Source: Azospirillaceae bacterium (GTDB lineage: Bacteria > Pseudomonadota > Alphaproteobacteria > Azospirillales > Azospirillaceae). Taken from it: 51,043 bases of DNA. The DNA lies in the NCBI GenBank assembly GCA_028281465.1, contig JANQJV010000382.1, forward strand, positions 1 through 51,043, written 5' to 3'. A program made the position numbers and the translations under genes. Under the pieces are notes generated by a model, which searched no databases, was not told the DNA's origin, and worked only from the letters and a program-made list of their open reading frames with translations. How positions within the stretch are numbered: position 1 is the first letter of the stretch; the number at the start of each line of letters is the position of its first letter. Positions 19,820 through 40,851 of this stretch are shown here, one piece after another.

Positions 19820-20023
19820 CTTCCATCTCCGTCGAACCCGGCCGCAGCGGGCCAAATGTCGTCAAAGCTCTGAAGATGAATGCTGGATGGATCTGGCGTC
19901 GCGGCCTTGGCGCTGGACACACTTGATGCGGCGCGTGTCCTCGTCAACGTCAGAGGTCGGCTGGTCTCATCCCGCATGGCCTGCGGTATCCCGCACGGCT
20001 GGCATTCTGGGGAGGCGGTAAGC

Positions 20024-21916
20024 ATGGCGCAAACGGGGGATATCGTGACCCTGGACTCACGTCGCCAGTACCAATTGCTTGGCGGACCGGGTGAAAAGCC
20101 AAACCCGGCCGAAGGCACGTTCGGTCTGGTGTACGCGGCTCTACCGCTATCGGCTTCAAAAGATGCCGAGACGCCGGTCGCGTTGAAGCTCGTCAACCGT
20201 TCGGAAATGCGCAAGCACGCCGACCTGTGGCGGGATGAGGCCCGGGCTCAAGAGTTGTACCGGGGTGTAATGCAGCGGGAAGGCCAGATCCTGTCGGCGG
20301 TTGCCAAACGGTGGTCAAATCCCCACGACGTCAATATCGTCCGCTTGGTTGACCGGGGCACCGTCACCGCACCGGCCGGCAAGGATGCGGGGTTTCCAGC
20401 CCTCGCGATGGAGCTGTGCGCATCATCGCTTGAAGAGGCCATAGTGTGCCGTGATCCCGATCGTGCGGGAGGGGATCTCGGGAGCGCCGGGGCACTGTGG
20501 CAGCATCTCGCAAGTGTCGATGGTCTTCTGCACCTGGCCCACTCGATCCTGGTTGCCCTCCAAGCCCTGTCGTCGCTGCCCCAAGACACCAGTGTCCGCG
20601 TGGCGCACCGGGACTTGAAACCAGGCAACATCCTTGTCAAGAACATCAACGACGGCAGGCGTCCAACCTATCTGCTCTCGGACCTGGGCAGCATCAAGAC
20701 ATTTGCCGCCCCCACTGGATCCGTCGGGAACTTCACCCAATCCTACGCCCCACCGGAAGTCCGACAAGCCCATAGGCGCCGGGGACCGAAGGGCACGACG
20801 GCGCAGATCGATCACTCCCGCGTCGATATCTACGCTTTGGCGGTGATCCTGTTCGAATGCGTGACCCGGTATCTGCCGCTGTACCATCAGGAGGATATTT
20901 CTGAGACGGCAGCGATTTTGACCGCGCGCGAGCTGTCGCTGCTTCGCGACGGTCTGGTACGGCTACCAGACACCCCGGCCGGTCCGACACGGCGGCCAGC
21001 TCCGAACCAGATGGCCGTTCGCGACGGCCTCCGGGCATTCATTCTGAAGTGCCTCTCGATTTCGCCGGATCAGCGTCCGACACTGTTGGGGGCCCTCCAG
21101 CATGTGAAAGCGCTGCAGCACCAGATTGGTCTCGCCACCGTCGCACGGCCGACCGTAATTCCGCTTCGGGCCGGCACCCCCACCATCGTGGCCGAAACCG
21201 TGTCGGTGCCTCCGGTGCGTCCGGTGACGCCGGCGAAACCAGGGCCAGTCCGGCGAACCGGCCGGGTCATAGCGGCCGCCCTACTGGCCGGCTGTCTTGC
21301 CGCCGCCATGCTTGCTCAAGAGCTTTGGCCCATGGAGGTTGCCATCCAGGGGATGCGACACTGCGCGACGGATGGCTACGGAGGCAGCGCCTGGATTGAC
21401 GGCACCTTGCGGCTCTCCGTCACCATCCGGCAGCCGCTGTGGCCCACCGGCGACCACGGCATGGCATTGCACCCATTGGCGGTTCGGATCACCGGGAACG
21501 GTGCGCGGCCGAGCTACCAATTGGCCTTGCCAGAAAGCGGTGGACCGGCATGCGCCCGCGCGCCGGTGGGCGAGGACGGTCGTTGGTGTCCGGCGTTTCA
21601 CGACAGGAGACCGGCGTCCGCCGGGGGCAAGGAATTGGTCGCCGTGGTCATCCGCCGCGGTACCCCCGTGGACGGCACTCGGGTCGCCACCATGCTCAAC
21701 GACGCCCTCTCCGGCGCGTCATCTATCGACCGTCCCCTTGATCCACCGGCGCTGGAAGCGCTTCTGGCTTCCGTCGGCCACCGTGTGATCGCGGTGCCGG
21801 CGACGGTGCCCACCCGGCCGCAAAACTGCCCGACGCAGCAGCCCGATTTGGCCGCCACGTTTTCGATGGCCGCGGATCCCACCCCCGGCACCCGGCGTCC
21901 CGCATGGACCAAATAG
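20024..21916 (+). CDS. Transmembrane Ser/Thr protein kinase, 630 aa
   Basis: Hanks-type kinase. The Gly-rich loop is GGPGEKPNPAEGTFGLVYA, longer than usual; Lys55 lies in VALK, the catalytic loop is HRDLKPGN (Asp197), and the magnesium site is DLG (Asp220) instead of DFG. The APPE motif follows at about 242-245. The kinase domain ends near residue 375, then a Pro-rich linker, one membrane helix (about 416-437) and a 190-residue C-terminal domain that should lie in the periplasm and contains four or more Cys. It has no PASTA repeats. ATG 20024 follows GGGGAGG and is preferred over the ORF start 144 bases earlier. First gene of a run with two FHA-like proteins and a PP2C phosphatase. Confidence 0.93.
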   Translation: MAQTGDIVTLDSRRQYQLLGGPGEKPNPAEGTFGLVYAALPLSASKDAETPVALKLVNRSEMRKHADLWRDEARAQELYRGVMQREGQILSAVAKRWSNPHDVNIVRLVDRGTVTAPAGKDAGFPALAMELCASSLEEAIVCRDPDRAGGDLGSAGALWQHLASVDGLLHLAHSILVALQALSSLPQDTSVRVAHRDLKPGNILVKNINDGRRPTYLLSDLGSIKTFAAPTGSVGNFTQSYAPPEVRQAHRRRGPKGTTAQIDHSRVDIYALAVILFECVTRYLPLYHQEDISETAAILTARELSLLRDGLVRLPDTPAGPTRRPAPNQMAVRDGLRAFILKCLSISPDQRPTLLGALQHVKALQHQIGLATVARPTVIPLRAGTPTIVAETVSVPPVRPVTPAKPGPVRRTGRVIAAALLAGCLAAAMLAQELWPMEVAIQGMRHCATDGYGGSAWIDGTLRLSVTIRQPLWPTGDHGMALHPLAVRITGNGARPSYQLALPESGGPACARAPVGEDGRWCPAFHDRRPASAGGKELVAVVIRRGTPVDGTRVATMLNDALSGASSIDRPLDPPALEALLASVGHRVIAVPATVPTRPQNCPTQQPDLAATFSMAADPTPGTRRPAWTK

Positions 21917-21978
21917 CCGGCCCGGTGCGTACCGGCCGCCAACCCATCGACCAATCAGACACAACGAAGGGTCTTATC

Positions 21979-23940
21979 ATGTTGCCGACATTCACCAATG
22001 TCTTCGCGCGCCGCAGGCCCAGAGTCACCCTGCCGGCCGATCTGGACGAAGCGCCGCGCAATGTTCACCGCAAGGTGCTTCGCATGGTGGATTATCGCCC
22101 CGGGTTCGAGGACGCTCTGTTCGACAAACTGCCGCGGTTCGGCGGCACGCGGGACACCATCATCGACGACCAGGGCCGATCGAACCACCGATTGGGTCAC
22201 GCCTTGGACGAATGTCGTCATCCTGCATTGCAGACGGACCCGAAATCCGGCCGCTCCGGCAATAATCCGACGGTATTTAACGATGTACTGCTGCTTCTGC
22301 CCCGCGAGGTCGTGCGCAGCAACCACATCAACGGCGGCGGTGAGAGCACCAACGCGTTGTGCTGCCGGCTCGCCGCCTTGCATAAGGATTCATTCGGCCG
22401 GGAGCTTTGGCAAGCCAATCGATCGGTGACCTACTCTGTCGCCGCCCACGACGGTCCAATGGATATGGTGGTTGCCCTGTTCGGACGGCCAGTCTTCCTG
22501 CCGGGACCGGACGACCGGCTCAGCGGTGAACTCTCGATCACCAAGCGCACCACGGACGGCCGCCTTGTTCCCGTGAAGATACCCACCGTGCACCGCTACG
22601 TCGGCGATCCGGGCAACCTCCGGCTGCACGAAGTCCCAGCCGGGGTTTATGACAACCAACGGTATTTGCTTCTGGGGTCAGATCCGACCACGGTTCCCAT
22701 GGCTTTGTTGCATTGGTTCAACAATCGAAAGGGCTACTTCCTGATCGATTTGGAGTGGGGCGAGGCATTCGCCGACGATCCCTGGGTCAGCGTGGTTGAG
22801 GACCCCATGGTGGTCGGCCCCGAGGCGGACCCGATGGCAGAGTCCCGGGCCACCTCTCCGCCGTACGGCCGACGTCAATGGCTTTGCGAAAGCCTGCAGC
22901 CGGTGGAATCGCCGTCCCAAAATCCGGAGCGGCTGATCGTGACCGTGGATCCGGTCGGTGAAGGCCGAGAGCCAGCGGAACGCCCCGGCGGTGTCGGCAC
23001 GGCGAGGCCGGCGCCGCGTGTCAAGCGTGATGCACCACGGGCCGAGACGCCGAAGCCAGACGTGGTCCAAGAGCCGTCTGCGCCGGCGGCATCGGTCGAG
23101 ACCGCCGAGGAGCCGGCAACAGCCGAGGACGGCTTACGCGCAACGGTGACCACTGAAGAGGCGCACAGGCCGACCCGGTTCAACGCCACCGTCATCACCA
23201 CGGATTACCGGCCGTTGCCCCAAATCGACCGTTACGCCCTGAAGATCGAAGGAATTGCATTGCCGAAGATCGGTGCCAGCCAGAACGCCGGGGTCAATCA
23301 GGAGTGGCTGCTGTGGCTGGATCGTGACGGCCACGTGATCACGCGTGCCCACAACGGCACCGCCGACACATCCCGATTGCGCCTGTCGGCCTCCACTGGG
23401 CGGGAGGGTCTGTTCTACTCAGCCCCGGGCGAACGCCATTGGGACTTGGTAACGCCAAACTGCACCGCTTTGCCTCTGGCCAATGGCGGCAAAGTCGCTC
23501 TCACCCCTGTGCCCAGGGGCGCTTCAGAACACTACTTCGGCATTCTGGCCCTGCCGACACCGATCATCCTGGAGCTGGCGGGAGATCGGGACATGATCTT
23601 GGGTCGGGCGGAGCCTGAAGACGCCAACCTCGCCGGGGCGTACGGCCCACGCAAGGTAGCGCCTGACCTGTTGACGCGTCCTGGCAGCTTGACCTGGCCC
23701 ACGCAACGCGACGCTGAGCTTGAACAGCTCAACCTGTCGCGCCGCCATTTGAACATGTTGATCCAAGACGGCTGCACTCTGGAGGTCGCCATGGAAAAAG
23801 GCAAGAGCCCAGCCTGGCGGGTTTCGCCGCAATTGCCGGACGGTGAGGCGCTGATGCCCGGTGATACGCGGACACTACTGCTCATGCTTGGCGAACGCTT
23901 GCTGGTGGGCTGTTACCTGCTCACCTTCGAGCGCCTCTGA
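21979..23940 (+). CDS. Large FHA-like protein 1, 653 aa
   Basis: Cytoplasmic protein without membrane segments. The C-terminal ~120 residues look like a forkhead-associated (phosphothreonine-binding) domain: ILGR (Gly-Arg 542-543) and LSRRH (Ser587, His590) are the conserved ligand-binding positions, although a ~40-residue insert separates them. The first ~290 residues form a domain I do not recognise, shared with the next gene (for example FNDVLLLLPREVV versus FNDVVVRIPRQQW). A Pro/Ala/Glu-rich linker joins the two. ATG 21979 follows GAAGGG; an ATG at 21904 overlapping the kinase stop is also open. Likely binds the kinase or its targets after phosphorylation (inference). Confidence 0.75.
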   Translation: MLPTFTNVFARRRPRVTLPADLDEAPRNVHRKVLRMVDYRPGFEDALFDKLPRFGGTRDTIIDDQGRSNHRLGHALDECRHPALQTDPKSGRSGNNPTVFNDVLLLLPREVVRSNHINGGGESTNALCCRLAALHKDSFGRELWQANRSVTYSVAAHDGPMDMVVALFGRPVFLPGPDDRLSGELSITKRTTDGRLVPVKIPTVHRYVGDPGNLRLHEVPAGVYDNQRYLLLGSDPTTVPMALLHWFNNRKGYFLIDLEWGEAFADDPWVSVVEDPMVVGPEADPMAESRATSPPYGRRQWLCESLQPVESPSQNPERLIVTVDPVGEGREPAERPGGVGTARPAPRVKRDAPRAETPKPDVVQEPSAPAASVETAEEPATAEDGLRATVTTEEAHRPTRFNATVITTDYRPLPQIDRYALKIEGIALPKIGASQNAGVNQEWLLWLDRDGHVITRAHNGTADTSRLRLSASTGREGLFYSAPGERHWDLVTPNCTALPLANGGKVALTPVPRGASEHYFGILALPTPIILELAGDRDMILGRAEPEDANLAGAYGPRKVAPDLLTRPGSLTWPTQRDAELEQLNLSRRHLNMLIQDGCTLEVAMEKGKSPAWRVSPQLPDGEALMPGDTRTLLLMLGERLLVGCYLLTFERL

Positions 23941-24063: not shown

Positions 24064-26283
24064 ATGGATAAGCCTCTCGACCGCCTGCGACCCGTCACGA
24101 ATGCGACGACCGTTGGCACCAGCCGCGTCCACACCCTTGTGCTGTCGGGTATGCCGTCGCAGTTCGAACCGGCGCTCGCGCACGCCGTCTGGGGGACGCG
24201 CGAAGGCCGGCGCGGCGCCTTCTCCGGCATCATGGATCAATATGGCCGAACCGACTTCCGCCTGTCGGACGCCTTGAAGCGCCATACCCATCCCACCCGA
24301 GGGTTTGACCGCAACACGGTGATCAAGTCTGGCGATCAGGTGTTCAACGATGTCGTTGTGCGCATTCCTCGGCAACAGTGGATCGACGGCCACCGTTTCT
24401 ATGCCGGCGCATGGACGTGGGCTCTCATCGAACAACTCGGACAGTGGCACACCGATGAATTCGGTGGCGCCTTATGGAAGAAGCGTAGTCCGCGCTATAT
24501 GGTGGTTCCCCACAGTGGCCCCGACGATGTGGTGGAGTTCTTTTGGGGCCGTACGGTCTCACTGCCCGGCGAAACGGAACAGCCAGCCGGCTGCATACGC
24601 CTGTTTCACGCCACCGAGAACGGCCACATCCGTCCGCTCACCTTACCGACTTGGCCACGCTATGTGGGGTCTTCCGAGACCCTGCGCCTGACGCAGGCGC
24701 CGGTGGCGATCTACGCGGACCAGCACTGCCTGCTGCTGGGTGGTGCGAGGTCGATCGCGCCCGTCGTCGTTGACGGCTGGCCATTTGCGTCGGCCACCAC
24801 CGCTTACATCGACTTCGACAATTCCTTCATCGGTGGCGAGGACGGTGGCGTTCGCTGCATACCGCTGGAGGAGGGACAGGACGACTCGGTGCTCGCCGAT
24901 CTGCGCAGTGCGTGCCCCGGCGCAGAGCAAATCTGGTGCTTCGAAGCGGCCACCAATGACGGCGGCCGCGACCCCGGCGACCGGCTGTTCGTGGTTCGTC
25001 AGCCCACGGCGGAGCTGGTCGAAGACGCCGAAGTGGCCACCAACGTGGCACAGCCAACGGACGAGGTGCCTTTGGCGGACACCGTCCTTGACCCTGTGGT
25101 TGCCGCAGCGGCCGACTTGCCGTCGGATGAGCCCGTGCATCCACCTCTTCGGGTCGAGGAGACCCCACCCGCATCGCCGGCGAAAACGGCGCCCAGTTCG
25201 CGGGTGGGCATGCGGGCCGTGCGATGCGAGACGGAGGACATTCCGTTGTTCCTCAAGCGTCCTCTGAACGCACAGCCGCAACCGTCGCGTCATCGAAGGG
25301 GATCTTGGAACCTCCTGACACGATTGCTGAAGCGGGACCGGAACACACCGTCCCGTGAGTCGACGCATGAGCCTCTTGATGCCGGATTTGGCAAGGAGGC
25401 GTCGCCCACGGGCCCCGAGTTCCGTGCGTTCCCGAAGGGGCCCATGCGCGCGCCGCGGGCGACAGTGGTCGGCACGCCCGTCCAGCCGACCCCGCACTCC
25501 GCCGCTGATGCCGAGCCCGCTGCTGGCCGGACCGAGGGAGGAAGCGTAGAGGTACCGTGCCTGCGGGTCACGCGGTTGGCCCTGCTGAAGGTCTTCGGCA
25601 GCAAAGCCGCCGACCGGGACCTGAATGCCTGGGTCTTGCCGGTCGACCGCTGGGGCTTGCCGGTCGCCGGAGCCAATGCCGCCGACGCTCCGGCCCCGGG
25701 TGTCACTCGGTTTGCAGCTCGGCGCAATGACGATCGCCTGTACGTCAGGGTGCCGGGGGCGACGAAATGGCGCGTGGCGCGGTTCCGGGATGGTTTCTGG
25801 CAGACCCCCCCCGACCTTGGCGAACCGGGTACAGCGATCGGTTTGGAGTCCGTGCCGGCAGCGCTGGCTGATCACGCCCACGCCTTCCTCAGACTCCCCG
25901 AACCGCAAACAATCGTCCTGCAGCAACCCTGCGAGAACGGCATGTTGGTCGGGCGGGACACCGGCGGTGGCGATGGCACCGAGCCGGGCCGATTGCAGCT
26001 TGGTCTATTGAGCCGGGTTGGCCAGTTGATGATCGATCATGCGAGCAACGCGACCTTGGAGCAGCTCAATCTGTCGCGCAACCATTGCCGTGTGGTGGTG
26101 CAAGGCCGGCAATTGACCGTTCGTATGGAAAACGGGCGGGCGCCGGTGTGGCGGCTTGATCCGGCTTTGCGTGTGACTGGGTGCTTGGGGGTAGGCGACC
26201 AGGAGGTGTTGCAGTTGGAGCCAGGAGAGTCGCTGTTGCTTGGCTGTTATGTCGTTCTGTTCGCCGTGATGCCACGCCCATGA
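24064..26283 (+). CDS. Large FHA-like protein 2, 739 aa
   Basis: Paralogue of the preceding gene, with the same order: an unrecognised N-terminal domain (about 1-300), a long low-complexity linker (about 310-500), a further shared domain, and a C-terminal FHA-like domain with MLVGRD (Gly630, Arg631) and LEQLNLSRNHCR (Ser671, His674). The segment ELEQLNLSRRH of protein 1 is almost identical, which supports recent duplication. ATG 24064 follows GGGAG. Its stop overlaps the phosphatase start (ATGA), so the two are translationally coupled. The insert between the GR and SRxH motifs is larger than in ordinary FHA domains. Confidence 0.75.
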   Translation: MDKPLDRLRPVTNATTVGTSRVHTLVLSGMPSQFEPALAHAVWGTREGRRGAFSGIMDQYGRTDFRLSDALKRHTHPTRGFDRNTVIKSGDQVFNDVVVRIPRQQWIDGHRFYAGAWTWALIEQLGQWHTDEFGGALWKKRSPRYMVVPHSGPDDVVEFFWGRTVSLPGETEQPAGCIRLFHATENGHIRPLTLPTWPRYVGSSETLRLTQAPVAIYADQHCLLLGGARSIAPVVVDGWPFASATTAYIDFDNSFIGGEDGGVRCIPLEEGQDDSVLADLRSACPGAEQIWCFEAATNDGGRDPGDRLFVVRQPTAELVEDAEVATNVAQPTDEVPLADTVLDPVVAAAADLPSDEPVHPPLRVEETPPASPAKTAPSSRVGMRAVRCETEDIPLFLKRPLNAQPQPSRHRRGSWNLLTRLLKRDRNTPSRESTHEPLDAGFGKEASPTGPEFRAFPKGPMRAPRATVVGTPVQPTPHSAADAEPAAGRTEGGSVEVPCLRVTRLALLKVFGSKAADRDLNAWVLPVDRWGLPVAGANAADAPAPGVTRFAARRNDDRLYVRVPGATKWRVARFRDGFWQTPPDLGEPGTAIGLESVPAALADHAHAFLRLPEPQTIVLQQPCENGMLVGRDTGGGDGTEPGRLQLGLLSRVGQLMIDHASNATLEQLNLSRNHCRVVVQGRQLTVRMENGRAPVWRLDPALRVTGCLGVGDQEVLQLEPGESLLLGCYVVLFAVMPRP

Positions 26284-27221
26284 GTATGGTGCATCGCTGG
26301 TGCCTGCCGGATCCCTTCCGCGGCACCGGCATCGCCGTTGCCGGCTACGCGGGCGGCCATGGTGGGTTTCAGGACAACTGGTTGGTGAATGTGGGCAGAG
26401 CTTCTGGAACGGGAGGATGCAGCCACCGCTTGATCGGCGGCCACCCGGTTTGCACGGCCGTGCCGGATTGGCCACGACACCGCGTCCGCGTCGCTGTTCT
26501 GGACGGGATGGGCGGTCAGTCGCTTGGCCGCTGCGCTGCCGAGACGGCGGCAGCGAGGCTGGCCACCCTGCCGCCGCTGGACTCGACGACAGTGCTGCGC
26601 AGCGCCGTGATCGAAGTCCACGCCACCTTGCAAACGTGGCTTGGTGGGCCGGGACGCGGCGGTACCACCCTGGTGCTGGTCGAACTGGACCTTGCAACGA
26701 ACACGGCCATGCTTGTCCATGTGGGCGACAGCCGTGCCTATTGCCATTCGCCCGGGGCCGTTGGAGTCTGCACCGAGACGGTGCAAGGCCTCGACAACTG
26801 GACGGCGCTCACCCATGATCACAGGGTGGCGGAGTTCGCTTGGCGGGATGGTGAATTGGATGATGGGGCGTACAACACGATTCTGAGGACGCCGACACAA
26901 CGCCTGGCACAAGCCGTCGGTTTCGGCTCGATGGGCGCATTTTCTCGTCGGGAGCGCCGGATCAACCCCGCCCTACGCATTGACGCCCCGCCCTTGCCCC
27001 ACGCCGACATTGCCGAATGGCGGCTAGGCGCCGGCGATCGCCTTGTTCTGGCCAGCGACGGTGTTTTCACCGACCCAGACCTGGTGCAGCCCTTGTTCAA
27101 TACCGGCTGCGCCCAGGCCGCAGCGGAGACCTTGGCTGCACGGACCGGTCCGGCCAATAACCACCTTTCCGACGATGCCACCATGCTTACCGTGGCGCTG
27201 GACGGTCCCACAGTCGCCTGA
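26280..27221 (+). CDS. PP2C-family Ser/Thr protein phosphatase, 313 aa
   Basis: Metal-dependent phosphatase expected to reverse the neighbouring kinase. The family motifs are visible in order: FQDNW with a metal-binding Asp, AVLDGMGG, GGTTLVLV, VGDSRAY, LTHDH, LVLASDGVF and SDDATML (usually DNxT). All metal-ligand Asp residues appear to be kept. There is no membrane segment. It starts in the stop codon of FHA-like protein 2 (ATGA). The kinase-FHA-FHA-phosphatase order strongly suggests a closed phospho-signalling unit. Confidence 0.93.
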   Translation: MSMVHRWCLPDPFRGTGIAVAGYAGGHGGFQDNWLVNVGRASGTGGCSHRLIGGHPVCTAVPDWPRHRVRVAVLDGMGGQSLGRCAAETAAARLATLPPLDSTTVLRSAVIEVHATLQTWLGGPGRGGTTLVLVELDLATNTAMLVHVGDSRAYCHSPGAVGVCTETVQGLDNWTALTHDHRVAEFAWRDGELDDGAYNTILRTPTQRLAQAVGFGSMGAFSRRERRINPALRIDAPPLPHADIAEWRLGAGDRLVLASDGVFTDPDLVQPLFNTGCAQAAAETLAARTGPANNHLSDDATMLTVALDGPTVA

Positions 27222-27572
27222 ACACCAGCCGGTTGCACGAACTGCGATCCGGATTGACCCAGGCGGTCGCCCATCCCAGCGTGAGACCCGACAGACGTCG
27301 GGCCCATGCAGCACGACGCGACACGCGGTAACGCGCACCAGCGGGCAATGCTTCTTGGCACACCCAGTGATCTGAAACGCGATCATGAGCCCATTAGCCA
27401 ACGGGCCGCTGTGTGGATTGCGCTTTTTCACCAGGGTGTTGCGGCCTTGTCAAAAAAAAAACGAACCCGCTTCTCAGGTCCGTCAACAAAAGCTGCAGCT
27501 CACCTTCCATAGCCCAGGTGAAGGCGGTTTCACCCGCCGACGAAAACCAAAACCGACGCTATGGAGCAGACA
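27222..27572. other. Intergenic stretch in the kinase locus
   Basis: About 350 bases without a convincing gene. It includes a run of ten A residues near 27452-27461 and a small hairpin, GGTGAA/TTCACC, near 27519-27536. A promoter for the next three genes could lie here, which would split the locus into two transcripts; I see no clear consensus site. Confidence 0.4.
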
Positions 27573-29483: not shown

Positions 29484-29515
29484 CTGCAGACGGTCACCCA
29501 TTTGCCGGAGGATCA

Positions 29516-30175
29516 ATGCAGCACAACCATCCGATAGCCGAGCCAGGGGATGATCATGATCCCCTGGCGGGCTTGCCATTCACCGAACCGTTCGACCCGG
29601 TACGGTACCACGAGCAGGTCAAGCGATTGACCACATGCGTGGACGCGCGTCACGAAGAGGAGACCGCCGCACAGTGGTGGGCAAGAGCTTCGGCCACCTT
29701 GTTCAGAGCCTTGCGTGGAAACCGGCCACGCCCCGGACTTCCACGGACCGTTCCATACCCGCAATTTTTTTCCGAGCGCAAAGCCAGCCGGCCACGGCTG
29801 CGGCAGCAGCCCGTCGGACAGTGGCACCGTCTGGCCGCGAAATCCCAGGCCGAAGGGGTGCTACCGATTCCGTTGAGGGTGCTCACCAGCAACAGTCGGC
29901 TGGAGATTATCTTCAAGATCGAAGACGGTATGCTGGCCGTCACCGTCCGCGCCATCGGCGGGCTGCTATGCCGTCCGGAGGCCTTCGCCAATCGCGGTGA
30001 TTGCGTTCTTGTGCTCGGCGACGCCGATCCTGACGGCGAACATACCCGGTCTTTGGCGTGCCCCTTGGCCTTCGATGACACGGCCGCAGCCCACGTGCTG
30101 CTCACCGACACGCCAGACCTGCGACGGTTCATCAACACCGGAGTGACGATCGTGCGGTTGATTACAACCAAATGA
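29516..30175 (+). CDS. Unrecognised 219-aa protein of the kinase locus
   Basis: Begins at ATG 29516 with GGAGG at ideal spacing. There is no membrane segment. The N-terminal half is Arg/Pro-rich (RALRGNRPRPGLPRT); the C-terminal half has alternating hydrophobic residues (LEIIFKIEDGMLAVTVRA, and RGDCVLVLGDADPDG) suggesting a beta-rich domain, perhaps related to a carbohydrate- or phosphopeptide-binding sandwich. No family recognised. It lies between the 636-aa protein and the Lon-like protein with short gaps, so it is probably part of the same transcript. Confidence 0.6.
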   Translation: MQHNHPIAEPGDDHDPLAGLPFTEPFDPVRYHEQVKRLTTCVDARHEEETAAQWWARASATLFRALRGNRPRPGLPRTVPYPQFFSERKASRPRLRQQPVGQWHRLAAKSQAEGVLPIPLRVLTSNSRLEIIFKIEDGMLAVTVRAIGGLLCRPEAFANRGDCVLVLGDADPDGEHTRSLACPLAFDDTAAAHVLLTDTPDLRRFINTGVTIVRLITTK

Positions 30176-30207
30176 TCTGTCATTGACAAGAAATACGAGA
30201 AATCAAC

Positions 30208-31656
30208 ATGTCGTCGACCATCTTTTTTCCGTTGCTACCGCTGGATCAGCCGGACGACAGTGATCTTCAGTTTGGGGCCCCCGAGAGCCTTAGGCAGACG
30301 ACCGCCGTCGCAGAGATTACATTTGATCTGGAAACTCGGTCATCCGCGGTGAACCGAAACAGGCAGGGCGATGACCAGGACCATCCCTTCATCCGCCGGC
30401 TGCGCGACGGTGCCGACAGACATCTCGACCGCCCAGCAAGGGCGGCCATACAGGCGGTGCGAAAGCTCGCGCCAAAACCGTCGGTGCTGACCTGCCCCTA
30501 CCAGTTTTTTGGGCGCGGGCGAACCGAATGGCTGGCGGACGTTACTCCGGCGATTCAAAGCCCAAGTGGTCTCGATTGGTCCGGTGAGAGTGCGACCCTG
30601 GGCATTGCCCTGGGGCTGCTTGGGGCGATGATGGCGCGCGATGGTACGCGCGTGATTGCCACGGGCAACCTGGAAGGGCATCCAGACCGCGACGGTACCC
30701 AGATCGGTTCGGGGATCAAGGTCACGCCAATTGGCGGCCTGGAAGCAAAGCTTGAGGCCGTCGAAACGTGGGCGCGGGCAAACCGGCCAAAGCATCCGGT
30801 GGCGTTTCTGGTTCCGTTTCAAGATGGTGACGAAACACCCCTCACCCCACGTGCCTTCAAGAAGCGCTACTGCTCCGGGCGAGGGAATTGGCATCGGCGG
30901 CTGCAGGCCGTGGGTGTCCGATTGTGTCCGGTGGATAATCTGCAGAGTGCCATCCGCCTGTTGCGATGGCATCGCCTTCGCCCGACGCTGTGGGATCGAC
31001 TGGTCCAAGGCGCCGTCGTGGGAAGCGTTGCGGTACTTGCGTGTTGGGGGGTCGACGAATACATGAGCAATCGTCCGATAGCGATGACCCACGCCCCCGT
31101 CGTCGACGCTGGAGGCACAGTGGTCGCGACACCATACCGGTCGCCCGATGGTAACCCTGCGAACGCGCGACCGCTGTGCAGGACCTCGGATGGTGTGCCG
31201 GCCGTTGCCGCGGGTGATTGGCTGTACTTCAATATCCGCTTCGCGCCGCGGTCCGAAACCGCCCGTCTGCCGGAGGGTCCATATTACCCCGCTTTGGTGA
31301 TGATCCCGGAGTTTGTCGTCCCGGGCAACACCATCAAGGCCGAGTTCCCCTATGGCGACGGATGCAGCGAGGGCCCTGTTTCAGCCGGAAACTCCTGGTG
31401 TCTTGGTATCCCAACCGAGGCCAATCGCTATGAAGATAATGCGGTGATTGCGATTGCGGCGCACCGGGCCGGCGAGGTGGAAGCAGAGCATCAGCGCCTT
31501 ATCAACCGGCATGCCCAGGTTCCTCCTGGCGCCCAACGCCGCCGCATCGATATCTCGAATGTGATCAGCGATGCAAAGCGGTCGTTTTCCGGCCGTGTGC
31601 TCGACGACGAAATTGTCTCCCGCTTCCGTACCGTACCACGCGACCAATGCCCGTAG
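30208..31656 (+). CDS. Membrane-anchored protein with a Lon (S16)-like protease domain, 482 aa
   Basis: Residues ~95-255 resemble the proteolytic domain of Lon: SGESATLGIALGLLGA places Ser128 where Lon has its nucleophile (GPSAG), and PIGGLEAKLEAV places Lys181 where Lon has the catalytic Lys (PIGGLKEKLLAA). The strand after it (AFLVPFQDG versus TVLIPFEN) and the closing RLCPVDNLQSAIRLL also correspond. There is no AAA+ ATPase domain. A single membrane helix follows (about 266-283), then a 200-residue C-terminal domain with Cys pairs that should lie outside. It could be a regulated peptidase working on the cytoplasmic face. The ribosome-binding site is weak. The family assignment rests on motif reading, not a search. 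Confidence 0.6.
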   Translation: MSSTIFFPLLPLDQPDDSDLQFGAPESLRQTTAVAEITFDLETRSSAVNRNRQGDDQDHPFIRRLRDGADRHLDRPARAAIQAVRKLAPKPSVLTCPYQFFGRGRTEWLADVTPAIQSPSGLDWSGESATLGIALGLLGAMMARDGTRVIATGNLEGHPDRDGTQIGSGIKVTPIGGLEAKLEAVETWARANRPKHPVAFLVPFQDGDETPLTPRAFKKRYCSGRGNWHRRLQAVGVRLCPVDNLQSAIRLLRWHRLRPTLWDRLVQGAVVGSVAVLACWGVDEYMSNRPIAMTHAPVVDAGGTVVATPYRSPDGNPANARPLCRTSDGVPAVAAGDWLYFNIRFAPRSETARLPEGPYYPALVMIPEFVVPGNTIKAEFPYGDGCSEGPVSAGNSWCLGIPTEANRYEDNAVIAIAAHRAGEVEAEHQRLINRHAQVPPGAQRRRIDISNVISDAKRSFSGRVLDDEIVSRFRTVPRDQCP

Positions 31657-31935: not shown

Positions 31936-32124
31936 TCACGATTCTTCGGATATCTCTGGTGAACCAGGATGGTTTGCTTCGAGCAAGCTTTTTTGGTTGT
32001 CAGTCTGGACTTTTTCGCCAGACAAGCGGTTATTTTCTTGATCCCAATGGCCGGTCGAAACTGCCCAGTCAAGGGCAAGTGCCATGACGAGGAGGAGGCG
32101 CTCGAACCGGTCCGTGTAGCGGCT
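31936..32124 (-). pseudogene. IS4-like transposase fragment (copy B, distal part)
   Basis: Encodes YTDRFERLLLVMALALDWAV and STGHWDQENN and ends with a frame that no longer looks like transposase. It continues the fragment at 32310-32414 but is cut off from it by an inserted repeat (32125-32309). In copy A (17708-17863) the corresponding codons (GFGINTTQIRYTDRFER) are uninterrupted. Confidence 0.7.
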
Positions 32125-32309
32125 CTGATACCCATGGCCCGCATTGACGACACGTTCGGTTTCGGCACTGAACCAGGAGCGCCGGTATCCCTGCCGGCTG
32201 GACCGCCGCCATCTTGGCGGCCGGCTGGAAGCCGGCGGTCCAGCCGGCAAGGATGCCGGCGCTCCGAAACAGGGCGGCCCGAAGACCGGTCATTGTTTCG
32301 GGCCGTTGG
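32125..32309. repeat. Composite repeat element, copy B (long form)
   Basis: Starts CTGATACCCATGGCCCGC and ends GTTTCGGGCCGTTGG, and contains the nested palindromic unit (32176-32265) with ~26-bp inverted ends. It lies inside the IS4-like transposase remnant, between the codons for GFGINNT and those for RYTDRFER, a different point from copy A. Confidence 0.85.
32176..32265. repeat. Nested palindromic REP-like unit
   Basis: The ends GGAGCGCCGGTATCCCTGCC and the reverse complement of GGCAAGGATGCCGGCGCTCC pair almost perfectly, and an inner hairpin (CCGCCGCCATCTTGGCGG) is also self-complementary. It is absent from the short copy at 32415-32505, where TTCGGCGCT joins directly to CCGAAACAGG, showing that this unit is a separate insertion. 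Confidence 0.85.
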
Positions 32310-32414
32310 TACGAGTGTTGTTGATACCGAAGCCGCGTGATTTGAAATCGGAGAACATGGGGTCGATCCCCCGACCGTCGCGATAGTCGAAGGTTTTCAG
32401 ATATCCTGGCGGAT
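32310..32414 (-). pseudogene. IS4-like transposase fragment (copy B, proximal part)
   Basis: Encodes PGYLKTFDYRDGRGIDPMFS and DFKSRGFGINNT, matching copy A at 17708-17800. It is flanked on both sides by copies of the composite repeat, so the transposase gene has been hit twice. Confidence 0.75.
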
Positions 32415-32505
32415 CTGATACCCATGGCCCGCATTGACGACAGGTTCGGTTTCGGCGCTCCGAAACAGGGCGGCCCGAAGACCGGTCATTGTTTCGGGCC
32501 GTTGG
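32415..32505. repeat. Composite repeat element, copy C (short form, 91 bp)
   Basis: Same outer ends as copies A and B (CTGATACCCATGG... and ...TCGGGCCGTTGG) but without the nested palindromic unit. It therefore represents the original outer element. Its two ends are partly complementary (GGCCCG...TGAC.GG.TTCGG), as in a small inverted-repeat element. Confidence 0.85.
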
Positions 32506-32820: not shown

Positions 32821-35493
32821 TCAGTTCGCCGCGGGGGCAGGTTTCGTATTGGTGAGTTTGATAAACGCATGGCCCCCGGTTCGCCTGTTGGGTGACCGAC
32901 GCGGGCTCAAAGGGTATGGGCATCCACCTTCCGACCCGACGGCGTCGGCGAGCCAAGCAGTAACCAGTGTTACGGCCATGAGGGGCAAAGCGAAGCCAAG
33001 CAGGTGACTGTTGCCGACCGAGAACCACGTCATGGGCTGACCGATCACCGGCAAAAGGCCGAGGGGGTTCGCCCACGCGATCAGCCAATGCAAGGCCTGA
33101 GCGGCGGCGAGACAGACCATGAGCAGGCACAGGAAAATGCTGACACTGCGCTGCAATGGCCGGCCACCGCCCCAACCGGCCACGTCCTTCGCCAGTCCAG
33201 TCATTTCAAGCAACAGAGCGATCTGGACCGCGATCACCAGGGCAGCGCCGGCAATACCGGTTCGGGCCAGAATGAAGGTGCCGATGAAGTCGCTCTCCAC
33301 TGCTGGTACCAGCAACTCCGGGCCGTTCATGCCGAAGGGGGCATCGCCCTCGGGCAACAGGCCGACTTTCGACAAAACGCGATAAGCGGCAATGATCTGT
33401 GCACCAGAATTGGGGTGCATTTCGGGTTCCGTGAACACTCGGATGCGGTCCCACACGGTTCCGGCCTCCGGCAGTCCGGCCTCCTGCGCACCGTACGCCT
33501 GCTGGGTGATGTGAAAGACCCCGAAGGTTGCAATGCCGAGAAAGCCCATGAGGACAACGAGCGGAAATAGACTCCACCAGTGGCCTGGGCCGCCCTGCGG
33601 CGCGGCTTTCAGTGCAAGACCGAGGCAGGCTGCCAGCCAAACCACGGAAATCAGGAACAGAATCAGCACCGGCGAGAAATCGTCCAACAACAGCAGAACG
33701 ACGACAATGGGCATGCCAACGATGGCGCCTTTGCATGCCAACAAAAAGACTGTCCTTCTCCACTGAGCTGCTGCCGAGGACAGATGGATCCACAAGATGA
33801 AATGCATGCCCAGATAAGACAGGAGAAGGCAGACCAAGAATTTGGCCGGTTCCGGCGGCTGCATGCCGAACACGCCGGATTCCGAGCCCGCCAAGAGCTG
33901 CAGGCCGAGGGCGGTGAGCACCGCTCCGGGCAGAGCGATCCGGGCCAGGCGGTGCAGGCCATGCTCGCGGTCGAGGATGCCCGCCAGTATGGCATAGAGT
34001 TGCCATCGCGGTACCAGGCTCACCCATGCCAGCGCCACAGCGGCACATGATATACTCGTTGAGTACTTCCAGATGTAACCGAGCCATCGATCATTGGCCG
34101 AACCGGCGCCAAGTTGGAGCGCCGTCAACCCGCCGCCCACTGCCAGAGCGGTCGCCAGCAGCCATAACCGTCCGGCGCGCCCAACCAGATGCCGTTGTCC
34201 TGATAGGGCGAGACACAGGGTGGTCCAAATCCACAGTGCGCTCGCTGTGAGGGGCAGCACCGTGGCCCCGTAGGCGGTTCTGTCCGCGGTAACGGCAAGC
34301 GCCAGAAAGGTGAGGGCCGGTAGACTGCCGGAGATCACGGCGAGTTTGTGGACGACCGGGGCTCGGTTCGAAGAGCGCTGCACCGAATGGTGCCAGAGTA
34401 CCGCGGTGGCCACCAGCACCGCAAACCCCAGGGTGGTGGCCAGTAGGCCCACGTTGTCGCGTAGCAAGCCTCGCCAGCCTGCTCCCTCGCCAATCCATGC
34501 CAACGGTGTCACATCATGTCCGATGTCCTTTGCCGACGTTGACACAACCATGGGCATGCTCTGCGGCAGCAGGTCGCGCCGTGCCTGGGGCGTCAAAACC
34601 AGGCGTTCACCGTCAACGCCCACCTGGTAGTGGGTCCGACCAATGCTGAAGCCGACCACGCCACCAGGACCGGCCGGCAGGCTGAGGTTGCTCAGCGCCA
34701 GAGCAGGTTGGCCCGAGCCGGCCCGTTGCACCGTCGCCTGATCGGCCAAGCCCCCGCCTGCCAGCCAGAAGCCGCCATCGGCCCAGACAACCTGCAGGCT
34801 ACCGACGGGAAGTCCAGCGATGGCCCAGCGCTCCGGGCAATTGACATAGCCGCCGATGCTAAAGACAACGCGGCCGCGGGTGACGGCTTGCGGCAGCAGA
34901 TTGCTCATCCAGAGCTTTACTTGCCGCAACCGCCGCTCCCCAGCCTTGACCTGACGCACGGCCCAGTTTTGCGGAGCATCGCTGCAGCTTGGGTAGGGCG
35001 GAGCTGTTGCGCCTGAAACTTCCAGACCGCTGCTGAAAGGAAGTGCGGCGCTCCATCGTGCGGCGTGACCGTCGTCGGCCTGCAGCGTAAGGCTGTGCTT
35101 GGAAACCGCGGTTACCGTGAACTGCGCGTCGCCAACGGCAAAGCGATCGTCTGTGGTGAGACGCCAACTGTTCAGATCGTGCCGGGATCCGTTGGCCATC
35201 CAGACCGTTACTCGCCGCTGTGGAGAGCGGTTGGCGATCCACCAAATGCCATGGTCGTCCACGAAGAGGCCGAGGCTGACCGGCTCCCGCCATGGTCCAG
35301 AGGGACGTTGTCCCAGGTCTTCTGGGCCCAGGTGTATGCCGCGACCAATCGCTGGAGGCGACAGCAAAATCCGGTTGACACGGACACCATCCGCAGCATG
35401 GTGAACGATCGCCCAACCGGCGGTGACCGCGGCGAAAACGAGCCCGACGGCGCCTAGGAGAATGGTTGAGGTGTCCAAAGGGCCGCGTGTCAT
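32821..35493 (-). CDS. SEDS-family (FtsW/RodA-like) peptidoglycan polymerase with external N-terminal domain, 890 aa
   Basis: Predicted glycosyltransferase that polymerises lipid II together with a class B PBP. Residues 9-30 form the first membrane helix; residues ~40-330 should then lie outside and contain two similar beta-rich repeats, each ending like an FHA domain (RFAVGDAQFTV near 118-127; VGFSIGRTHYQV near 280-291). The SEDS core follows (about 343-855): GMQPPEPAKF is the usual QPSExxK loop in altered form, LVPAVESDFIGTFI holds the conserved Asp735, and GQPMTWFSVGNSHLL matches the PLPFxSxGGSS loop. Ordinary FtsW/RodA are ~400 aa. ATG 35493 overlaps the PBP stop (ATGA), so the two are translationally coupled. 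Confidence 0.85.
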   Translation of the reverse strand: MTRGPLDTSTILLGAVGLVFAAVTAGWAIVHHAADGVRVNRILLSPPAIGRGIHLGPEDLGQRPSGPWREPVSLGLFVDDHGIWWIANRSPQRRVTVWMANGSRHDLNSWRLTTDDRFAVGDAQFTVTAVSKHSLTLQADDGHAARWSAALPFSSGLEVSGATAPPYPSCSDAPQNWAVRQVKAGERRLRQVKLWMSNLLPQAVTRGRVVFSIGGYVNCPERWAIAGLPVGSLQVVWADGGFWLAGGGLADQATVQRAGSGQPALALSNLSLPAGPGGVVGFSIGRTHYQVGVDGERLVLTPQARRDLLPQSMPMVVSTSAKDIGHDVTPLAWIGEGAGWRGLLRDNVGLLATTLGFAVLVATAVLWHHSVQRSSNRAPVVHKLAVISGSLPALTFLALAVTADRTAYGATVLPLTASALWIWTTLCLALSGQRHLVGRAGRLWLLATALAVGGGLTALQLGAGSANDRWLGYIWKYSTSISCAAVALAWVSLVPRWQLYAILAGILDREHGLHRLARIALPGAVLTALGLQLLAGSESGVFGMQPPEPAKFLVCLLLSYLGMHFILWIHLSSAAAQWRRTVFLLACKGAIVGMPIVVVLLLLDDFSPVLILFLISVVWLAACLGLALKAAPQGGPGHWWSLFPLVVLMGFLGIATFGVFHITQQAYGAQEAGLPEAGTVWDRIRVFTEPEMHPNSGAQIIAAYRVLSKVGLLPEGDAPFGMNGPELLVPAVESDFIGTFILARTGIAGAALVIAVQIALLLEMTGLAKDVAGWGGGRPLQRSVSIFLCLLMVCLAAAQALHWLIAWANPLGLLPVIGQPMTWFSVGNSHLLGFALPLMAVTLVTAWLADAVGSEGGCPYPLSPRRSPNRRTGGHAFIKLTNTKPAPAAN

Positions 35494-38216
35494 GGCGTGG
35501 GCTCCGGAGTGGTGCTCGTTGGCAGGACGTGGTTCACCATGTGAAGAACGGGGACCAGTAGCGGTTGCGCCAGTTGGTCGAGCATGTCGGCCATGATGCG
35601 TCCGCAAACGGCGCCACCGGTATGGTGGCTTTCGTACCCATGGCTGACCATGCACGCGAACGCCAGGGGTTGGGCGAACCGGGAACGCGTCGGCCCCGGC
35701 AACAGAGTCGAGCCGCCATTGGCCGCCACGCTTGCCGCGCCGGCAATCGAGCGTCCGCGAACCAGGGCATGGAAGGCCTCGGCCTTGGCCCACCCCACGA
35801 ACCACGCGCTGGTAAGATGGCCTGGGGCATCGCTGTCGCTTGGGGCGGCGGTGTTGGGTCGGCCGGACTGCCCGGTCCCGGTTTTGCCGTAGACGTGGCA
35901 AGCGGCCAGACGGAGGGCCAAAGATTTGGAAAAGGCTCCCCTGGCGGTGCCGGTCTCCGGCACAAGCTTCATGGCGTCGCGCAGGTGCGCCACGGCCTGG
36001 GCGGGCAGTGGTGGGCCTTTGGGTGATGAAACCCCTTCGCCGTTCCAATCGCCGATCAGGTAAGGGGAGGGCAACGTGCCGGTCGCAATGGCAGCGACCA
36101 AACGGGCCGCTTGCAGCGGCGAAATGCGAATGCGCTGACCGATCGCGGTCTGGGCCAAGGTGTCCACGGCACCGGCCGGGCGCTGGCGCCGCGCTGCCGG
36201 ATCGGTCAGATGCGCCAATTCCAGTTCGGCCGCGTCGGGGACGAGGATGAATCCAGCCCTGGTGCGGCGCGGCTGCGTTTCCAGCCTGTGTCTTGCCGTA
36301 CCAGCCAAATCGGCTTGCGTATCCAGGAGACCCAGCAGGCGGGCCGTTGACAGCAGGTGGGTTTCACCCAGATCCGGCAGACGGTCGGCGAGCGCCAATT
36401 GCCGCGTTGCATGGTCCGCGCCGGCCAATCCCTCTGGCAACCGGCGCCGACGGGCCGCCTTGTCGTAGCTGAGCGCCGTTTCCAGATCGAGCCGTTCCGC
36501 AAGCTTGACGAACCATATGTTCACCGAGTCCCGCAGAGCTTCGTCCAAACCAAAGCTGTGGGCGGGGCGGGCACTGCCACCGCAGGTCGGCGAACGGTGG
36601 GCTTTCCGCAAACTGTGCCGCAACGGCTTGTCTTCGAAATTGCTGATCGTATCACGCCTATGCTGGCCGGGCATGCCATAAGAGAAGTCCGCGGCGTCCA
36701 GGCCGGCACAAATCAGCCGACCGGCGTGGTCCGGTTGGCAGCCGTCAAGCATGGCTGCCAAAGTGGTGTCACGCTCTGCTGCCAACAGGGCGGCGAACGC
36801 GGTCACCAGCTTGAACACCGAGCCCGGCGTGTTGTCGGTGTTCACTCCGTGCCAGGCGGTGGCCGTTTGCGGATCGCGGATCGGATCGCCGCGGCGCCCG
36901 GCGGCCAGGTCCCAGGCATGGATGGGACCGGGCAGACGTGGGCTGCGTGCGGCGGCCAAAATGGCCCCGCTATCCGGATCGAGGACCACGATGGAGGCGC
37001 GGCGAAGGTCCCGATACGGGTCTTCCTGACCGAATGCTCTCTGCAGTCCCGCGTCCAGAGCATTTTGCGCCGCTTCTTGTACCCGGGAGTGGATTGTGAG
37101 CCGAAGGCTGGCCGGTGTCTTGCGGTCTGGGCGCCGGGCAACGGCACCGATCATGGACCGCCGGTCGATCGGTCCGGTCCCGATGATCGGGAGCAGGCCT
37201 GCCGTCACGGCGAGATCGGTCAGGCCGTTGGCACCCTGCCAGAGCAGATGCCCGTCCGCCGTCGACAGCGTCACGTTGGCGTGGGCCCAGGCTGGGGCGC
37301 GGCGCTCGGTCCCGGTCCAGATCACATCGGTTCCGTGCACGGCGACGGCGAGGTCCGGCACCGGGAGGTGTGCGGCCGTATTCGGTGCGACGGCGAGCCG
37401 CATGGAATGCGCGCCCGGCGGCAGGGACGATACCAGGATCTCGGCTCCGGTCGCGTTGGCTTGGCCGCATGGGGTACGTGGACACCGCCACTCGACATGC
37501 GGGCGACCCGGCAGGCTGGATAACGCCAAATCCAGCCGGCCCAACACCTGGATGCGGAGTTGCTCCAAGGTTTGGGATAAGGTGACGGTCGACATCAGGT
37601 GCACGATGCCGGTGCCAGGGTGGAACTGGTGCCAATCACCCATGCCTATGCGTAGCATCGGGGCAATAAAGCCATAGCGTTCCGGAACCGGGAGACGCGA
37701 GGGGGGGACGGGACGTCCGGCCGTGTCCGCCACCCGCCACTGGACGGCAGTGCGGCCCTGCGGGAGGACGCCGGGTCCGATTCCGGCCGCCCCGACCGGT
37801 CGTACCGCCGACGGGCGGTCGTCGCGCACCGCCACCGCATGGCGTGTCGAATTCCAACGGGCCACTTGCCGCCGCACCGCTGTCCCATTGGGGGTGCGAT
37901 ACAGCGCTTCGATGAGTTGCTGTTTTTCCCGCCAGGTTCGGTTGCCAAGCGGTGCTGGCCGGCCGTTCGCTGCCGCGAAGGCCAATTCGAAGAGCGCCAA
38001 ATCCCGCGCCGGCAGATCGATCCGCCCGGTGACGGGATCGGCGGCGATCAGACGGGTGGCCTTAAGGCGCTCGAAGAGTTCCGCATCTTCCAACAGTGGC
38101 GAGGACGGTTCTGACGGTGACACGACAAACGTGGCGACGTGGGTGACGCGGGCGGTCAAGCCGACAATGGCGGTGCTGGCCATCGCAAACCACAAGAGGA
38201 AGGGCCTCCAACGCAT
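35490..38216 (-). CDS. Class B penicillin-binding protein (transpeptidase), 908 aa
   Basis: Cross-linking enzyme partnered with the SEDS protein. An N-terminal membrane anchor (about residues 5-28, RPFLLWFAMASTAIVGL) is followed by ~340 residues without the usual PBP2/FtsI pedestal signature, then the transpeptidase domain: TPGSVFK (nucleophile Ser466, Lys469), DSVNIWF (Ser564-Asn566) and YGKTGTGQS (Lys778-Gly780). All three active-site motifs are intact. I prefer ATG 38216, which has AAGGA-like sequence upstream and starts a good anchor, over the ORF start 75 bases earlier. It is longer than cell-division or elongation PBPs (about 580-650 aa). Confidence 0.9.
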   Translation of the reverse strand: MRWRPFLLWFAMASTAIVGLTARVTHVATFVVSPSEPSSPLLEDAELFERLKATRLIAADPVTGRIDLPARDLALFELAFAAANGRPAPLGNRTWREKQQLIEALYRTPNGTAVRRQVARWNSTRHAVAVRDDRPSAVRPVGAAGIGPGVLPQGRTAVQWRVADTAGRPVPPSRLPVPERYGFIAPMLRIGMGDWHQFHPGTGIVHLMSTVTLSQTLEQLRIQVLGRLDLALSSLPGRPHVEWRCPRTPCGQANATGAEILVSSLPPGAHSMRLAVAPNTAAHLPVPDLAVAVHGTDVIWTGTERRAPAWAHANVTLSTADGHLLWQGANGLTDLAVTAGLLPIIGTGPIDRRSMIGAVARRPDRKTPASLRLTIHSRVQEAAQNALDAGLQRAFGQEDPYRDLRRASIVVLDPDSGAILAAARSPRLPGPIHAWDLAAGRRGDPIRDPQTATAWHGVNTDNTPGSVFKLVTAFAALLAAERDTTLAAMLDGCQPDHAGRLICAGLDAADFSYGMPGQHRRDTISNFEDKPLRHSLRKAHRSPTCGGSARPAHSFGLDEALRDSVNIWFVKLAERLDLETALSYDKAARRRRLPEGLAGADHATRQLALADRLPDLGETHLLSTARLLGLLDTQADLAGTARHRLETQPRRTRAGFILVPDAAELELAHLTDPAARRQRPAGAVDTLAQTAIGQRIRISPLQAARLVAAIATGTLPSPYLIGDWNGEGVSSPKGPPLPAQAVAHLRDAMKLVPETGTARGAFSKSLALRLAACHVYGKTGTGQSGRPNTAAPSDSDAPGHLTSAWFVGWAKAEAFHALVRGRSIAGAASVAANGGSTLLPGPTRSRFAQPLAFACMVSHGYESHHTGGAVCGRIMADMLDQLAQPLLVPVLHMVNHVLPTSTTPEPTP

Positions 38217-38391
38217 CAATCCATGTCCTTCCACGAAGCACCGCACCGGCAACGCCTTGGTGAGACCACTGGCCCCCTGTCGCCGTTCCATGCGTGCGGG
38301 ATGGGAACGGCCCCTTCAATTCAATGGCCGGCCGGTTTGGTCGTATGCGCGCATCATGACGATGACGCCCGTCAGCTATGCCGGGTAACGG

Positions 38392-38478: not shown

Positions 38479-38900
38479 CGCGCCTCGGCGCTCACGCGAA
38501 CTGACCTGCTTGCGCTCGCTCCTGGAGACCGACGGACCCGGGCGCGATGCGATCATACCCTCGATAAGATCATTCGGTTCCGTTAGCCCCGACAACAGCG
38601 CCTCGCGAACGGCAGCGACTGCGCCCAACACGAGGCATCAAGGTCGAGACCGGCGCACCGCGGCAAGGTCGATTGACCCAGCCAAAGAACGCACCGAACG
38701 ATCCATAAACACCCGAATAAAACCTGCGGTTGAAAAACTCACGCGGGCGCTACCCACCCGATTCAGCCTCGTGCATGATCCGGGCCCGATGGTTCTTGGT
38801 GACGCCTCTGTGCGTCTTTCTGGTTCCATGGTGCAGCGGGCCGCTCCAAAAGCCCAAGTCGTCCGGTTCGGGGATGGTTCCACCCGGTTTCTGCCGCCCT

Positions 38901-38916
38901 TGTCGGCGATCCGACA
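38901..38916. promoter_or_regulatory. NifA-type upstream activator sequence (TGT-N10-ACA)
   Basis: TGTCGGCGATCCGACA fits TGT-N10-ACA exactly and is itself a near-perfect palindrome. It ends only 8 bases before the -24 element at 38925, far closer than the usual 80-150 bases, so it may act unusually or be fortuitous. Confidence 0.6.
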
Positions 38917-38924
38917 AAAACCAA

Positions 38925-38940
38925 TGGCACGCCGCTTGCT
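38925..38940 (+). promoter_or_regulatory. Sigma-54 (-24/-12) promoter
   Basis: TGGCACGCCGCTTGCT matches the consensus TGGCACR-N4-TTGCW at every conserved position. The start site should be about 11-12 bases beyond it, leaving a leader of ~30 bases before the ATG at 38984. It should drive the carrier-nifV-nifW operon under NifA control. Confidence 0.9.
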
Positions 38941-38983
38941 GTTGCGGGTTCGACGCAACATACCCGACACGAGGAGCGGAGCC

Positions 38984-39307
38984 ATGGTGGCGGTGAGCGA
39001 AACGGCGGTGCGGGCCTTGGCACAGGTGGTGGCGGACGGCGAGGCGGCGTGCCGCGGTTTGCGTATCATGGTGGAGGCGACCGACTGCTCTGGACCGAAA
39101 TACCTCATGGGCGTCGAAACCGAGGCCATGTCGGGCGACATCATCCTCGACCTGGACGGCCTCACGCTGTTCATCGACCAGGACAGCCATCCGCTCTTGC
39201 GCGGCACACAGATCGATTTCGTCGACGACGAACGCATGCAGGGGTTCACCTTCGACAATCCGAATTTCCCCGGCCTGTGCCAATGCGGCGAGGCCGTGTG
39301 TCCGTAA
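38984..39307 (+). CDS. Nif-associated A-type Fe-S cluster carrier (HesB/IscA family), 107 aa
   Basis: Small scaffold or carrier protein that hands Fe-S clusters to nitrogenase-related proteins. The conserved Cys is in EATDCSG, and the C-terminal CQCGEAVC supplies the paired Cys of the family (normally CGCGxSF); here there is an extra Cys near the end, as in nif-linked members. Length is normal. ATG 38984 follows GAGGAGCGGAG. It is the first gene after an exact sigma-54 promoter and lies 14 bases before nifV. Confidence 0.9.
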   Translation: MVAVSETAVRALAQVVADGEAACRGLRIMVEATDCSGPKYLMGVETEAMSGDIILDLDGLTLFIDQDSHPLLRGTQIDFVDDERMQGFTFDNPNFPGLCQCGEAVCP

Positions 39308-39321
39308 GGGAGGATTGGGCC

Positions 39322-40482: not shown

Positions 40483-40802
40483 ACCAGTCGGTCCTCGATA
40501 GACTGGCTGCCTGCGCAACCCTGGACGACTGGCTCGATCACCTCGGCGTGGCGGCAACCGAGCGCCCGTCTGCGCCGCGGCGCGTGGCCTGCCTCAAGGC
40601 GCTGCGCCGTGTTCTCGACCGGCCCGGATGGGCCGGACGGCCTGACGACGATCTGGTGGCCGCCTGCCGGGCGGCCATTGCCGCCGCGCGGGACTCCTCA
40701 ACCGGCCCGCCGCCGACTCGCGCCGAATCGTCGTCAGGGCCCCCGCGGCGTGGTTTCGTTGCTTTGGATTCCGTCCTGCGGCGCGGACCGAAAGCCGATT
40801 GA
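40479..40802 (+). CDS. nifW: Nitrogenase-stabilising protein NifW, 107 aa
   Basis: Small helical protein that helps protect or mature MoFe protein. The N-terminal VLDRLAACATLDDWLDHLGV fits the NifW pattern (L..L..L.SAE.FL.FLGV), and later RRGFVALDSVL resembles the 'F.PL..V' end. Family similarity is moderate. It starts within the nifV stop (ATGA), so the two are coupled. A hairpin lies 50 bases after its stop. Confidence 0.75.
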   Translation: MNQSVLDRLAACATLDDWLDHLGVAATERPSAPRRVACLKALRRVLDRPGWAGRPDDDLVAACRAAIAAARDSSTGPPPTRAESSSGPPRRGFVALDSVLRRGPKAD

Positions 40803-40851
40803 TCCGCCAATGATCCCTGAAAGCGCTTGGTACTCTGAATAATCCGTGCAG

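Follow-up and report, generated by a model that had tools for sequence, protein, structure and literature searches.

The window, by which we mean the whole analysed stretch of 51,043 nt from an Azospirillaceae bacterium, encodes an 890-aa SEDS protein (32821..35493, minus strand) in which a region with an FHA-like fold, predicted to lie in the periplasm, precedes a core of the FtsW/RodA type. We consider it probable, at about 0.6, that this protein belongs to a third, regulated SEDS-PBP peptidoglycan synthase, in which the ectodomain acts as a docking or gating module.

In the AlphaFold model of the whole protein (21-sequence alignment; mean pLDDT 81.8, pTM 0.84), a helix at residues 8-31 is followed by a beta-rich region at 36-331 and then by 13 helices. 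The helix at residues 8-31 (35401..35472, minus strand, as are all features of this protein given below) is an N-terminal addition, with the N-terminus inside according to the model and the topology count. The ectodomain, comprising two FHA-like halves, was delimited to residues 36-335 (34489..35388) by the model, structural neighbours, profiles and topology. Three additional helices (residues 348-430, 34204..34452) are modelled ahead of the canonical 10-helix core (residues 438-854, 32932..34182), which was recognised by structural and HMM matches to FtsW and RodA in the PDB. The open reading frame, its coordinates and the motifs quoted in the original prediction, which was made from the sequence alone, were found as described, and so was the succession of one helix and two similar beta-rich halves at residues ~40-330, the two repeats matching each other in profile comparison.

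The FHA fold is normally a cytoplasmic reader of protein phosphorylation. Using hhalign, we compared repeat 1 (residues ~36-148, 35050..35388) and repeat 2 (residues ~208-304, 34582..34872) with a profile built from 18 true FHA domains and with each other. Repeat 1 matched FHA at 83% (score 33.7; maximum of 150 column shuffles, 15.2), the repeats matched each other at 36% (26.5; maximum 16.7) and repeat 2 matched FHA at 19%, with a marginal score (22.6; maximum 21.9). None of the 150 shuffles reached the observed score in any of the three comparisons, and reversed controls gave at most 10.6%. Each half contains the W/F-rich strand (IWWIAN and FWLAGG, with Trp at column 84 in 18 of 20 relatives) and the FHA-like ending (FAVGDAQFTV, residues 118-127, and FSIGRTHYQV, residues 282-291) previously read from the sequence; in repeat 2, GG replaces GR and the ending takes the form GRTxY. 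The Pfam FHA profile matched none of the 21 family members at E up to 0.5. Modelled alone, the ectodomain reached a pLDDT of 86.2, and its six best structural neighbours were all FHA domains (PNKP, mouse PNK, SLMAP, TIFA, the Bacillus subtilis T7SS core unit and MU2), with modest Z-scores of 5.8-6.5, the next, unrelated chains scoring at most 4.5; neither Foldseek with the isolated model nor a search of PDB sequences with the profile of the ectodomain returned anything significant. Since the ranges aligned to these neighbours extend over positions 6-263 of the model with only 80-101 residues aligned, the model suggests that the matched beta-sandwich uses strands of both halves. The computed fold of residues 40-330, on which the original prediction had staked its claim of two FHA-like repeats, is thus FHA-like; the claim is clear for repeat 1, but repeat 2 is only weakly FHA-like by sequence.

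In the established SEDS topology, the first canonical helix runs from inside to outside. In the window protein, this helix spans residues 438-463, and the QPxE-bearing helix comes fourth in the canonical core; because three extra helices separate the ectodomain from this core, the ectodomain is placed outside, on the side of loop 4. In 20 of the 21 members, Lys and Arg are commoner on the side predicted to be inner; the remaining member is a tie. Cys170 (34984..34986) and Cys219 (34837..34839), the sole two cysteines of the ectodomain, are predicted disulfide partners from their paired occurrence: 19 of 21 members have both, two desulfobacterial members lack both, possibly through one event, and none has a single one. 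Relative P0002, outside the 21, lacks the second cysteine and has another cysteine near the first. Such pairing would fit a disulfide formed in an oxidising compartment. Helix count, charge distribution and cysteine pair, all computed, therefore agree with the original placement of this region outside the membrane and argue against a cytoplasmic location, which had been named as its refutation.

Phosphothreonine reading by the ectodomain was considered and ruled out, its key residues being absent. The window protein lacks the phospho-binding Arg, Ser and His, having P57 and S73 in place of the R and H found in 6/20 and 16/20 relatives, respectively, and it keeps N88. The strongly conserved features of the ectodomain, GG-V-C-RW, W84, L-x-x-GD and GRTxY, are not of the phosphothreonine type. 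Because the phospho-binding residues have been lost while other positions are strongly conserved, the ectodomain is probably a docking or gating module. It has the predicted beta-sandwich in common with the FHA domains of PNKP, SLMAP, TIFA, MU2 and the B. subtilis T7SS and differs from them in its periplasmic location, predicted disulfide and lost phospho-binding residues.

Residues 426-854 superpose on FtsW and RodA structures with Z-scores of 24.2-27.7 over 289-339 aligned residues, and the family profile of the ectodomain SEDS proteins matches FtsW and RodA of the PDB. In a genome search, the gene scored 36.7 bits with PF01098 (cut-off 26.4); a Pfam hmmscan of the single protein gave no SEDS family match, its filters having missed PF01098, and this profile matches 14 of 21 relatives at E up to 0.5. 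The predicted catalytic residue of extracellular loop 4, Asp735 (33289..33291), is invariant in all 21 family members and aligns with the catalytic D255 of TtRodA and D275 of PaFtsW, in line with the earlier statement that the catalytic Asp region is kept; D605 is also retained. The published catalytic residues of Escherichia coli are RodA D262 and FtsW D297 (PMC10449877, PMC8765783). At the start of canonical TM4, alignments identify QPPEPAK (residues 545-551, 33841..33861) as the QPxExxK motif. Its description as a changed QPSE loop holds for the presence of the motif, but the change is minor, since the family retains Q, P, E and K (E548 and K551 invariant, Q545 and P546 at least 90%). The family-wide deletion of the ECL2 GxxRW segment is a larger change; in addition, P-D-x-G is altered to x-D-x-S-P and S-Y-G-G is also changed, and all three are present in the genome's own RodA, whose locus was compared. 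Among the residues important in E. coli FtsW are ECL2 Trp138, P196, G199 and Y379 (PMC8765783); here, the W138-bearing segment is deleted and several such residues are missing or changed, so the substrate or activity of the protein may differ. The family also has invariant positions of its own, namely W807, N809 and the GQ of GQPM.

The gene upstream of the SEDS gene encodes a class B PBP (35490..38291, minus strand, with a true start perhaps 26 codons later than in this call), matching PF00905 and carrying SxxK at 491, SxN at 589 and KTGT at 803; these motifs are intact in 21 of 21 PBP family members (the window PBP and 20 relatives). The ATG of the SEDS gene overlaps the PBP stop codon (ATGA). 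A profile comparison found no FHA-like region inside the PBP. On the other side of the PBP gene, at 38510-42753 on the plus strand, lie genes for a SufA/IscA-like iron-sulfur scaffold, the homocitrate synthase nifV, which scores above its NCBIfam cut-off, and a NifA-type GAF/sigma-54 activator; the proximity of these nif genes may be a coincidence.

The window also contains, on the plus strand, genes for a Ser/Thr protein kinase (19880..21916; PF00069) whose hydrophobic segment near residues 455-475 is followed by a C-terminal region, for a protein with a C-terminal diverged FHA domain (21904..23940; GR, SRRH) of a kind that recurs beside PBP and SEDS genes, for a paralogue with a similar domain (24064..26283; GR, SRNH), identified by sequence, recurrence and profile, and for a PP2C-type phosphatase (26181..27221; PF13672, PF07228), which probably starts near 26277. 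The window kinase has no PASTA match in Pfam, the kinases of other loci having been scanned in part. The C-terminus of the FHA-protein family matches the FHA profile at 90%, and as GR and SRxH are mostly kept, these neighbouring proteins could be intracellular phosphothreonine binders. A recent origin of the SEDS ectodomain by duplication from them was rejected, the profiles failing to match (0.6-5.6%), and PADLOC gave generic kinase matches only, with no known anti-phage system. Such neighbours, with a kinase and a phosphatase beside the two FHA proteins, suggest that the SEDS-PBP pair is a wall-synthesis machine that can be switched. This gene context, the PBP included, had no place in the original prediction. 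The kinase/FHA/PP2C block is opposite in strand to the SEDS gene and separated from it by three other genes and repeats.

Full-length relatives with 24-37% identity occur in Azospirillaceae, other Alphaproteobacteria, Gammaproteobacteria (Contendobacter, Achromatium, Imhoffiella and Methylococcaceae) and Desulfobacteraceae; a Phycisphaeraceae MAG contig falls among the alphaproteobacterial ectodomain SEDS proteins in the tree and may be misbinned. A second group, from Hoeflea, Bosea and their relatives (at least 1050 aa), shares this ectodomain according to a comparison of profiles (99.5%, E 2.5e-22); in these longer versions (loci L042-L062), the stretch that precedes the catalytic Asp is far longer, and their genes directly follow a PBP gene. 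Ectodomain matches were found in five of 397 sampled genomes of the phylum, including its own genome, and three of them are weak; a search for plasmid relatives gave no match. Canonical RodA and FtsW are encoded elsewhere in the same genome, so the SEDS gene of the window was rejected as either of them. A census of the class covered 57 genomes; exactly two canonical SEDS proteins (209-366 bits) were present in nearly all of them, and only three had a third, weak one (37-47 bits). The 21 ectodomain SEDS proteins are separated from 31 canonical ones by a branch with 100/100 support, in a tree with long branches whose canonical members are mostly RodA. The ectodomain SEDS proteins are thus a rare accessory clade beside canonical RodA and FtsW.

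The PBP gene directly precedes the SEDS gene in most loci in which a PBP gene was found. A homologue of the FHA proteins lies within the examined stretch at L021, L022, L023, L024, L029, L030, L034, L037, L065 and the G042 locus (L015), and a kinase, a PP2C phosphatase or both are also present in many relatives' loci, the phosphatase type of the window recurring in L029 and L030. The order FHA protein-PBP-SEDS recurs in L021, L022, L023, L024 and L037, headed by the kinase in L024 and L037, with the kinase nearby in other loci. Imhoffiella has FHA-PP2C-PBP divergent from SEDS, and L030 has FHA-PP2C and then PBP-SEDS; no PBP or FHA gene was detected at L026, L027 and L028, partly owing to the short stretches there.

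We infer from these data a mechanism in which the accessory SEDS glycosyltransferase would pair with the class B PBP of the overlapping upstream gene, the two proteins polymerising and cross-linking peptidoglycan. The two FHA-fold halves with their one predicted disulfide would sit in the periplasm on the side of the catalytic loop, where the ectodomain, not reading phosphothreonine, would most likely dock on a periplasmic protein, the PBP or another, and gate or position the polymerase. The signal for the complex to be active would come from the membrane kinase, the PP2C phosphatase and the cytoplasmic FHA proteins encoded alongside. Rather unlikely, in our view, is that the ectodomain is a ligand sensor that switches the polymerase on when it binds lipid II, a muropeptide or a glycan in the periplasm; a glycan or lipid II had been suggested as its ligand in the original prediction. 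Its conserved non-phosphothreonine features would suit such a role and the nearby kinase and phosphatase suggest control by a signal, but FHA folds without a phospho-binding pocket can act as protein-protein modules. A bolder version, which we offer as a doubtful conjecture, is a new class of kinase-controlled wall synthase: attached to the polymerase, an extracytoplasmic FHA pair of the non-phospho kind would read a periplasmic cue (a wall fragment, lipid II or a partner protein are proposed) and gate glycan synthesis. This would perhaps be the first known case of FHA-fold modules at work outside the cytoplasm.

That the SEDS protein polymerises or transfers some other undecaprenyl-linked glycan instead of peptidoglycan seems quite improbable. 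The loss of the GxxRW segment and of the PDxG and SYGG residues would fit it, together with the family-specific invariant W807, N809 and GQ; against it, the catalytic Asp is kept and the partner PBP, with its intact transpeptidase active site, points to peptidoglycan. Hardly credible at all is an arrangement with the first helix inverted and the ectodomain in the cytoplasm, reading phosphorylation by the adjacent kinase. It would agree with the usual location of FHA domains and with the kinase and phosphatase encoded nearby, but counting helices from the catalytic core leaves only an outside position, the positive-inside pattern and the paired cysteines point the same way, and the residues for binding a phosphate are gone.

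With RodA-PBP2 and FtsW-FtsI, the regulated SEDS-PBP synthase proposed here has in common the 10-helix core, the loop 4 Asp, QPxE...K and a class B PBP partner in an overlapping gene; it differs in the addition of one helix, an FHA-fold ectodomain of 300 aa and three further helices, in the missing ECL2 GxxRW, and in forming a separate clade with weak family scores. In Actinobacteria, the PP2C gene pstP belongs to the pknA/pknB-rodA-pbpA cluster. That cluster encodes PknA, PknB, RodA, PbpA and two FHA proteins (PMC3989709), and a kinase, two FHA proteins, a SEDS protein and a class B PBP are likewise grouped in the window. By contrast with the actinobacterial cluster, the window kinase has no PASTA match, its block lies on the other strand, the FHA proteins have large extra N-terminal regions and the SEDS protein has an FHA-fold ectodomain; the resemblance is one of gene content and does not imply homology of the loci. 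In Enterococcus faecalis, an accessory SEDS protein is reported to be induced under wall stress (PMC12724132); it too is an extra SEDS protein beyond the housekeeping pair, in a Gram-positive bacterium. Open-access text searches returned no paper in which an FHA domain is named as periplasmic or extracytoplasmic, and none on a PBP-SEDS-kinase-PP2C-FHA gene set. How SEDS proteins are switched on is a live question. A natural SEDS protein that carries a periplasmic regulatory domain of its own, with a kinase, a phosphatase and FHA proteins nearby, would allow regulation to be tested as a built-in property of the enzyme; FHA folds would extend to the periplasm, and Proteobacteria would gain a locus like the actinobacterial kinase-FHA-RodA-PbpA cluster.

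After the kinase/FHA/PP2C block come three uncharacterised genes (640, 219 and 482 aa; 27561-31656, plus strand). In Niveispirillum, a trio of weak similarity to them adjoins the SEDS gene (L038, 6622-9826, minus strand); L037 has parts of this trio (16844-18609). Copies of a palindromic repeat at 17711-18071 and 32078-32505 flank the segment from the kinase gene to the 482-aa gene, with inverted arms of 106 nt at 92% and direct copies of 91 nt at 97%, and might mark a mobile or rearranged segment. Elsewhere in the window, on the minus strand, are a transposase gene of the Mutator family, interrupted by a single in-frame stop (5082-6290), a BrnT-like ribonuclease toxin domain opening a longer open reading frame (6530-7003), and a CHASE2-adenylate/guanylate cyclase beside a phytochrome hybrid histidine kinase (7868-13140).
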